Shown in pieces: positions 22,396 through 24,832 of a stretch of 64,000 bases of DNA. The first letter of the stretch is position 1, and each line of letters opens with the position of its first letter. The position numbers and the translations under genes are program-made. The notes below the pieces were generated by a model. It searched no databases, had not been told where the DNA came from, and worked only from the letters and a program-made list of their open reading frames with translations. This DNA comes from Desulfobulbaceae bacterium (lineage in GTDB: Bacteria; Desulfobacterota; Desulfobulbia; Desulfobulbales; SURF-16): positions 19,724-83,723 of the forward strand of contig PKTX01000020.1 of NCBI GenBank assembly GCA_002868945.1, written 5' to 3'.

Positions 22396-22462
22396 CCATC
22401 CCCCTGCCATTGTCGCTCCCCGGCCGGCGGCCCCAAAAAGGTGGCGATTCAGCGACTTTTTT

Positions 22463-22491
22463 TTGACAATAGCTTGCTGAAAAAGTAAAGT
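22463..22491 (+). promoter_or_regulatory. Promoter of the GEMM-I riboswitch transcript
   Basis: TTGACA (22463-22468), a 17-base spacer and TAAAGT (22486-22491). The predicted start of RNA is around 22498, exactly where the riboswitch P1 strand begins. Confidence 0.6.
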
Positions 22492-22496
22492 AACAT

Positions 22497-22719
22497 GTAC
22501 TTAAAGCCAAACCTGTTGTGAGGCAGGGACGGAAAGCCACGGGTCTTATGAAGATAAGGTGCTGTCCTTAAACAAGCTTTTTTGTACACGATCACAAGGT
22601 TAAAAAATCAAGGAGCAGCCGGGGTATCAGCCTGCCGCTTTTTTTGAGCATAGCATTCCTTGAGGATCGGTCAAAAAATTCGTTATGGCCAGCCATCAGA
22701 TAGCCGAGTTACCAAGTAC
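22497..22719 (+). ncRNA. GEMM-I (c-di-GMP-I/cGAMP) riboswitch with a long P3 insertion
   Basis: Core GEMM-I pieces are visible: AAAGCCAAACC, a hairpin CCTGTT-GTGA-GGCAGG with a GNRA tetraloop, then GGGACGGAAAGCCACGGGTCT, and much later AGATAGCCGAGTTACC, which fits the conserved 3' part. P1 can form perfectly between GTACTT (22497-22502) and AAGTAC (22714-22719). The P3 region between is about 150 bases longer than usual and contains its own stems, such as GCTGTCCTT with AAGGAGCAGC. The 3' part overlaps the left arm of the terminator, so ligand binding would block termination (an ON switch, inferred). Whether it prefers c-di-GMP or cGAMP is not resolved. Confidence 0.7.
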
Positions 22720-22744
22720 GAGCACTGGTAACCCGGTTTTTTTT
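22704..22744 (+). terminator. Riboswitch-controlled intrinsic terminator
   Basis: Arms CCGAGTTACCA (22704-22714) and TGGTAACCCGG (22726-22736) pair with one mismatch and are followed by eight T. The left arm is shared with the aptamer 3' strand, as expected of a riboswitch expression platform. The next convincing gene starts only at 23053; a 36-codon frame at 22745 has no ribosome-binding site. Confidence 0.8.
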
Positions 22745-22879
22745 ATGAAAAAGGAAGTTTCCTCTCGTCTTTGTTCTGAAAGAAAAAACGTAGCCCGTCA
22801 GCGATGGTGGCCATCCTGCCGCCCTCAAATCGCCGAGGCTGTCGTTCTCATATGAAGCATTTCCGAACAGGCACTATTA

Positions 22880-23023
22880 AAGGGTATCTTGCATAAACAG
22901 GTATTGTGTCCGAAATTGACAGGCATGGAAGATAAAAAGTGGAGCATATCGAGTATATGTGAGCATTTTTATCTTCGTTACGCCGAAAATATCGACCAAA
23001 AGAACACTTAAGCAAGATAGCCT
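22880..23023 (+). repeat. Family A miniature inverted-repeat element
   Basis: Ends AGGGTATCTTGCATAA and ACTTAAGCAAGATAGCCT form terminal inverted repeats. The interior carries GGAAGATAAAAAGTGGAGCATATCGAGTATATGTGAGC and TTTTTATCTTCGTTACGCCGAAAA-type blocks seen in other copies (each block short and diverged). It lies between the riboswitch terminator and the helicase gene, immediately upstream of the helicase ribosome-binding site. Confidence 0.75.
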
Positions 23024-23052: not shown

Positions 23053-24540
23053 ATGAGAAAAAACGCAGCATACACTCGCTCTGTCACGGATCCGCATCTC
23101 GAGATTGCATCCCAGCCCGGTCAGGTCTTTGGCTTGACCATTCACAAGATAAGCCGAACCGCCACCCCCGCACCTGCCAAAAAGAGTGCGTCGAAATCGG
23201 TCAGAAAGAAAACGCCCGCCCCGCCGCCGACCCCAAAGAAAAAAAGACAACCTCTGGAGAACGGCGATTGGGATCTTTCCCAGTTCCAAGTCCCTGAAGA
23301 AAAGGGCCGCAAACGCTTTCACGACTTTGACCTGCCCCTTGAGGTCATGCACGCCATCAGCGATCTCTCCTTCCACTACTGCACGCCCATCCAGGCTGAA
23401 ATACTTGCCCACACCCTACAAGGCAGGGATGCCACGGGCAAGGCCCAGACCGGCACCGGCAAATCAGCCGCCTTTCTCATCAATATCCTGACCACCCTGC
23501 TCACCAAGAGTCCGCCCAAGGGTGCCAAAAACGCAACGCCGCGCAGCCTGATCATCGCCCCCACCCGGGAGCTTGTCATGCAGATCGCCGAAGATGCCGA
23601 GAAACTGGCAGCCTACAGTGATATCCACATTGTGCCGATCTATGGCGGCATGGACTACCAGAAACAACTCGACGATATCCAGGGACAACAGGTGGATATT
23701 GTTGCCGCCACCCCCGGCCGTCTCCTTGATTTTCAGCGCAAGAGACAGATTAATCTCAGCGACGTGGAAATTTTTGTCATTGATGAGGCGGACCGCATGC
23801 TGGACATGGGTTTTATCCCGGATGTCCGCCAAATCGTTCACAGCCTGCCGGACAGGGGACAGCGCCAAACCCTCTTTTTCAGCGCCACCTTGACTCCTGA
23901 GGTAAACCACCTGGCCGACCAGTGGACCAAGGATCCGGCCGTGGTGGAGATAGAAACCGAACACGCCACGGTGGACAGCATTGATCAGCTCGTCTATCTG
24001 GTCACCACTGACGAGAAATTCCCCCTCCTCTACAACCTTATTGTCTCCCAGGATCTTCACAAGGTCATTGTCTTCTGCAATCGCAAGTCAGAGACCAGAG
24101 AACTTACCGACCTCTTCAAGCGCCACAAGATCTCCTGCGGCGTGCTCTCCGGTGATGTTGACCAGAAAAAACGCGTTACCACCCTGAATGATTTCAAGGA
24201 AGGCAAGATCAGAATCCTGGTGGCCACCGATGTTGCCGGTCGCGGCATTCATATTGAAGGCATCAGCCATGTGGTGAATTACAATCTGCCATACGACCCG
24301 GAAGATTATGTGCATCGCATCGGTCGTACCGGCCGCGCCGGCGCCACCGGCACGTCGGTAAGCTTTGCCTGTGAAGAGGATTCCTTTTACTTGCCTGATA
24401 TCGAAGAGTTCATCGGCCGAAAACTTACCTGTATCCATCCCGCTTACGAGCTGTTGGCTGAAGTTCCCAAGTTGCCGCCCCAGAAAAGGCGCCCCCGGCC
24501 CAGCAGTTACAAGGGAAGAAGGAGCCCGCGAAAAAAATAA
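23053..24540 (+). CDS. DEAD-box RNA helicase (RhlE/RhlB-like)
   Basis: A 495-aa ATP-dependent RNA helicase. Residues 1-90 are a Lys/Pro/Ala-rich extension. The core has the Q motif (CTPIQ), [32 protein letters not shown] and, in the second RecA domain, [13 protein letters not shown] and [10 protein letters not shown]. The basic C-terminus ([17 protein letters not shown]) suits RNA binding. AAAGG precedes the ATG. It is followed by a cold-shock gene, a common pairing for RNA unfolding at low temperature. It might be the remote target of the upstream GEMM riboswitch, but a repeat element intervenes. Confidence 0.92.
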
Positions 24541-24622: not shown

Positions 24623-24832
24623 ATGGCGAATCGGCAAATCGGCACTGTGAAGTGGTTCAACGACAGAAAGGGCTTTGGTTTTATTATCCCTGAAAACGGC
24701 GATGATGTCTTTGTCCACTATCGGGCAATCCGCGGTGAGGGGCACCGCACCCTTCTTGAGGGCCAGTCAGTGGAGTTCAATGTCATTGAAAGCCCCAAAG
24801 GCTTGCAGGCAGAGGATGTGGCCATTGTCTAA
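24623..24832 (+). CDS. CspA-family cold-shock protein
   Basis: A 69-aa single OB-fold RNA chaperone. RNP1 reads KGFGFI and RNP2 DVFVHY. AAGGAGGATCTC before the ATG is a near-perfect ribosome-binding site. The 82-base gap after the helicase gene suggests either cotranscription or its own leader. Such proteins melt mRNA secondary structure. Confidence 0.96.

Follow-up and report, generated by a model that had tools for sequence, protein, structure and literature searches.

A c-di-GMP-I riboswitch with a large P3-loop insertion and its probable assignment to an RhlB-like RNA helicase gene in a Desulfobulbaceae bacterium

Introduction

The window analysed here is a 64,000-nucleotide stretch of DNA from a Desulfobulbaceae bacterium, and it contains a riboswitch-like region in which a long additional segment interrupts the aptamer and the first good gene lies at a considerable distance. 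The questions raised by this locus are which gene, if any, the element controls, and whether it can still act as a switch. We conclude that the riboswitch is real and probably functional for a downstream helicase gene, and we infer its ligand, its ON direction, and its ability to work despite the insertion. Its most likely identity, which we hold with good though not full confidence, is that of a c-di-GMP-I riboswitch of the GEMM-Ia type that switches transcription ON from the leader of a gene for an RhlB-like helicase, probably with a cold-shock-domain gene behind it. All features mapped in the window below are on the forward (+) strand.

Results and discussion

Detection and architecture of the aptamer

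An Rfam scan of the whole window detected a single riboswitch, c-di-GMP-I (GEMM-I; RF01051), at 22496–22631, with a score of 42.3 bits against a gathering score of 35. The gathering-mode alignment places the 3' half at 22606–22631, i.e. within the inserted segment, where it has no P1 partner. In a sensitive scan of the small region, the sister model RF03167 aligned to 22497–22717 with 45.8 bits (E = 6.9e-10), skipping approximately 148 nt in the P3 loop; this is the best full alignment of the aptamer, although its score is below the model's own gathering score of 59. The structure that it describes is the same as the one drawn in the first-pass annotation, which had asked for a covariance scan allowing large P3 inserts. 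Among the approximately 150 c-di-GMP-I matches listed in relatives, the span is 73–103 nt, compared with 221 nt in the window, and the long gap is probably largely responsible for the lower Rfam score of the window copy relative to compact relatives.

The two alignments differ in the 3' strand that they select. A score of 42.3 bits and the resemblance of 22606–22631 to a GEMM 3' half would speak for taking the gathering-mode alignment as the true aptamer and the downstream terminator as a separate element, but the segment lacks a P1 partner, whereas the strand at 22698–22719 is almost the same as the congeners' 3' half, supplies the partner for P1, and shares sequence with the terminator. The orthologues contradict the shorter alignment, and we give it practically no credence. 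The aptamer spanning 22497–22719 is thus used in what follows.

In this aptamer, which is complete, the 5' strand of P1 (GTACTT, 22497–22502) forms a perfect 6-bp helix with the 3' strand (AAGTAC, 22714–22719), which was placed by congener and model alignment. The corresponding 5' strand is GTGCTT in congeners G001 and G003, where pairing is retained via G-U. P2 is a hairpin (CCTGTT-GTGA-GGCAGG, 22512–22527) closed by a GNRA tetraloop, GUGA at 22518–22521, as seen in the alignments to the Rfam models. The 5' strand of P3 with its native loop side (GCCACGGGTCTTATGA, 22536–22551) is conserved in congeners, and the 3' strand of P3 (AGATAGCCGAGTTACC, 22698–22713) was placed by the same congener and model alignment. 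The covariance score, the P1, P2-GNRA, and P3 helices, and the conserved core are all those of the c-di-GMP-I class (RF01051). An expression platform that overlaps the aptamer and a downstream helicase gene in conserved synteny are also present, from which regulation is predicted.

Ligand specificity

The ligand contacts, in the Vc2 numbering, are G20, A47, and C92. Alignment to the Rfam models assigns these to G at 22506, A at 22533, and C at 22712, the last within the 3' strand of P3. Since all three equivalents are kept, c-di-GMP is the expected ligand of the window aptamer, as judged from sequence. Two other specificities were considered and rejected. The GGC variant (RF03167) has G as its consensus at the position occupied by A22533, and its model gives 45.8 bits against the 59 required. 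An A at position 20 marks the cGAMP type (GEMM-Ib), and the base at 22506 is G, not A.

Promoter and terminator

A sigma-70-type promoter (TTGACA-17-TAAAGT, 22463–22491) was called by the promoter scan with a match of 10/12, and the predicted transcription start approximately coincides with the first base of P1. The same arrangement, TTGACA-17-TAATGT, is found in G001 and G003. An intrinsic terminator occupies 22704–22744: its arms, CCGAGTTACC and GGTAACCCGG, form a 9-bp stem at 22704–22736 that is followed by a T8 run, and it is conserved in all three congeners (G001, G002, and G003). The second half of the P3 3' strand doubles as the 5' arm of this terminator, which is mutually exclusive with P3 and P1. 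The C92 equivalent falls within this arm together with P3 3'-strand sequence, so that the ligand-bound aptamer and the terminator cannot form at the same time, and an ON switch is predicted. No other promoter was called on the + strand between the terminator and the helicase gene. The promoter, GNRA-containing core, perfect P1 pairing, and overlapping terminator listed in the first-pass annotation were all confirmed.

Assignment to the helicase gene

The first-pass annotation saw apparently no adjacent gene, and this proved to be wrong. The gene at 23053–24540 encodes a 495-aa RhlB-like DEAD-box RNA helicase (PF00270 and PF00271) that is closest to RhlB models, at 533.7 bits just below the cut-off of 564. 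A compact homologous riboswitch lies upstream of the orthologous helicase gene in each of the three available congeners, whose helicases are 76–80% identical to that of the window, and a member of another genus in the same family (G010) also carries a helicase riboswitch. In 3/3 congeners, the riboswitch 3' strand starts 92 nt before the ATG, and the terminator T-run is located 57–58 nt before it. These homologous elements in front of the same helicase indicate that the window riboswitch belongs to the helicase gene, and they favour, among the options previously raised, control of the helicase transcript by the terminator. Comparison with relatives, which had been proposed as a check, showed conservation of both the P1 pairing (G001 and G003) and the terminator. 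A cold-shock-domain protein gene (24623–24832, PF00313) follows the helicase gene in the window, G001, G003, and G010, and it is probably co-transcribed with the helicase gene.

A wide association of GEMM riboswitches with this helicase was rejected, as no riboswitch above the cut-off was found in approximately 30 further helicase loci. Several copies at orthologous loci are altered. The G010 copy (L078, 1289–1365) has a changed C92 position (GTTATG versus GTTACC) and is without a clear T-run terminator. That of G002 (L096, 2850–2923) is degenerate (29.6 bits), has lost the GNRA tetraloop, and shows at position 20 the A that marks the cGAMP type; it is either decaying or altered in specificity. 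In G006, another family member, a remnant (L079, approximately 1201–1310) keeps a promoter-like start and the 3' strand GATAGCCGAGTGACC but has lost the greater part of its 5' half. Some relatives (G002 and G006) no longer have riboswitch control, and decay could also be under way in the window genome.

The P3 insertion and the enlarged leader

Comparison with congeners confirmed the roughly 150 extra bases reported within P3: the apical loop contains an insertion at 22552–22697, 146 bp when one copy of a flanking AGATA is counted, that is absent from all orthologues. The 5-bp direct repeat AGATA is present at 22552–22556 and 22698–22702, and to the left and right of the insertion every paired strand and both native sides of the P3 loop are preserved. 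The insertion is located in a tolerant loop and is seen only in the window genome. Its fold is one long, imperfect hairpin contained within the insertion itself (z = -1.9, equalled in 9 of 200 shuffles).

The origin of this segment was sought in several directions. No second copy was found in its own genome, and searches of 257 further genomes from the same order and a sample of 394 others from the phylum gave matches of chance size only, so that a copy of a dispersed element was rejected. A search of a phage collection gave no match. A mobile-element origin is plausible but unproven. Tandem duplication of the riboswitch was rejected as a source: a 16-nt stretch is all that the insertion shares with the riboswitch region around it (equalled in 10 of 500 shuffles), and comparison with the orthologous riboswitches gave nothing clear (39–59 of 500 shuffles as good). 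The GEMM-3'-half-like stretch at 22606–22631 lies within 22606–22654, a region whose GEMM-like resemblance (the same 10 of 500 shuffles) is possibly due to chance. The insertion also contains an imperfect hairpin followed by T7 (approximately 22616–22645), which might act as an early terminator, and then TTTTTTTGAGCATAGC, which resembles the -35 region at 22458.

The leader is enlarged downstream of the terminator as well. As the first-pass annotation had noted, the first good gene is more than 300 bases away behind a repeat: 316 nt separate the T-run from the helicase ATG at 23053, compared with 57–58 nt in congeners, i.e. approximately 258 nt extra. Of this, 143 nt is a MITE-like dispersed repeat (22881–23023) with 16-nt terminal inverted repeats, for which the copy search yielded 41 other matches across the 3.7-Mb genome, approximately 71–83% identical and on both strands. 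The suggestion that the controlled gene had been lost or displaced by this repeat holds in part: the gene is displaced, the repeat accounting for some of the distance, and it is not lost, as the helicase gene is present. The remaining stretch (22745–22880, 136 nt) is absent from congeners and has no further copy in the genome. Within it, 14 nt (AGAAAAAACGTAGC) closely resemble the helicase start (3 of 500 shuffles as good); a copied helicase start is a possible source of the stretch, although the match is limited to these 14 nt.

A terminator with a 9-bp stem and T8, and a gene as far as 316 nt away, could also suit a small RNA that is itself the product, as had been proposed. However, the homologous leaders end 57–58 nt before the helicase gene in congeners, and the insertion would make up most of the RNA, yet it is conserved nowhere searched; we regard a small-RNA product as highly improbable. 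Control of the helicase gene by the riboswitch remains our reading.

Proposed mechanism and effect of the insertion

The promoter would start the RNA at P1. P2 would fold first, and the P3 insertion would form its self-contained arm. With c-di-GMP bound, the 3' strand at 22698–22719 would close P3 and P1 around the ligand, and RNA polymerase would read through into the helicase gene. Without ligand, 22704–22713 would pair with 22727–22736, the C92 equivalent would be sequestered, and transcription would stop at the T8 run. The ancestral leader was probably compact, with the P3 insertion and the extra leader DNA inserted into it later.

The cost of forcing the aptamer to form before completion of the terminator was calculated with a secondary-structure free-energy model, which ignores ligand and tertiary contacts, and was 3.3 kcal/mol for the window and 0.7 kcal/mol for the empty site. 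The corresponding values were 4.1 and 6.4 kcal/mol in G001 and G003, respectively, and shuffled inserts gave a mean of 7.1 (sd 3.0). The window value falls within the range of the compact orthologues, so that by this measure the insertion is no worse than natural compact copies, and the model suggests that it is compatible with aptamer folding. In addition, the insertion lies upstream of both competing strands, so that the decision window between aptamer and terminator would be unchanged.

These considerations bear on whether the insertion has broken the riboswitch, through poor aptamer closure, a constitutive terminator, or early termination within the insertion, with helicase transcripts then arising by read-through or from an overlooked promoter within the added leader sequence. 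The restriction of the approximately 146-nt insertion to the window genome, the spacer longer by approximately 258 nt, the internal hairpin with T7, and the decay of the same riboswitch in G002 and G006 are consistent with such a loss. The aptamer strands, ligand contacts, and terminator are nevertheless all intact, P1 still pairs perfectly over 6 bp, and the model places aptamer closure within the range of costs for the compact orthologues; a broken switch is thus unlikely, although it is the alternative that we take most seriously. Far less probable is an elaborated form of the preferred ON switch, in which c-di-GMP would gate a helicase and Csp operon and the P3 arm would be put to use, e.g. 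by binding the helicase or Csp as a second, protein-controlled input.

Significance and comparison with known systems

The riboswitch class and its mechanism are known, and the interest lies in the pair of genes targeted and in the naturally occurring insertion. In uncultured bacteria resembling Desulfobulbaceae, the locus would connect c-di-GMP with genes for RNA remodelling; the titles and openings of the papers found, an incomplete coverage of the literature, hold nothing relevant on c-di-GMP riboswitches with RNA helicases, and no such target was met there. In addition, the empty-site relatives offer a natural before-and-after comparison with which to ask if a large P3-loop insertion can be tolerated by a riboswitch.

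Other c-di-GMP-I riboswitches were observed in the course of the analysis. The window genome has two more, one (L002; G000:C76:61294-61369) immediately before a CXXCH multihaem cytochrome gene and one before an unclassified ORF. Matches clustered on one contig, i.e. three within 500 bases in G012 (G012:C78:5817-6298) and those in G010 (G010:C73:10237-12979), suggest tandem riboswitches.

Compared with known c-di-GMP-I riboswitches (RF01051), the window copy has the same core, P2 with a GNRA loop, P3, equivalents of G20, A47, and C92, and an overlapping terminator, and it differs in the insertion of approximately 146 nt in the P3 apical loop. It scores slightly higher with the c-di-GMP-I-GGC model (RF03167), but below the gathering score of that model and with A instead of G at the A47 position. 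The pilM riboswitch of Geobacter metallireducens, a GEMM-Ib element responding to cGAMP, has been described experimentally as an ON switch in which the terminator sequesters the ligand-pairing C (PMC9262584). In the window, the 3' strand of the aptamer, together with its ligand-pairing C, is likewise taken up by the terminator, and an ON switch is predicted. The two differ in that pilM senses cGAMP, whereas G20 in the window predicts c-di-GMP and the controlled gene encodes an RNA helicase.
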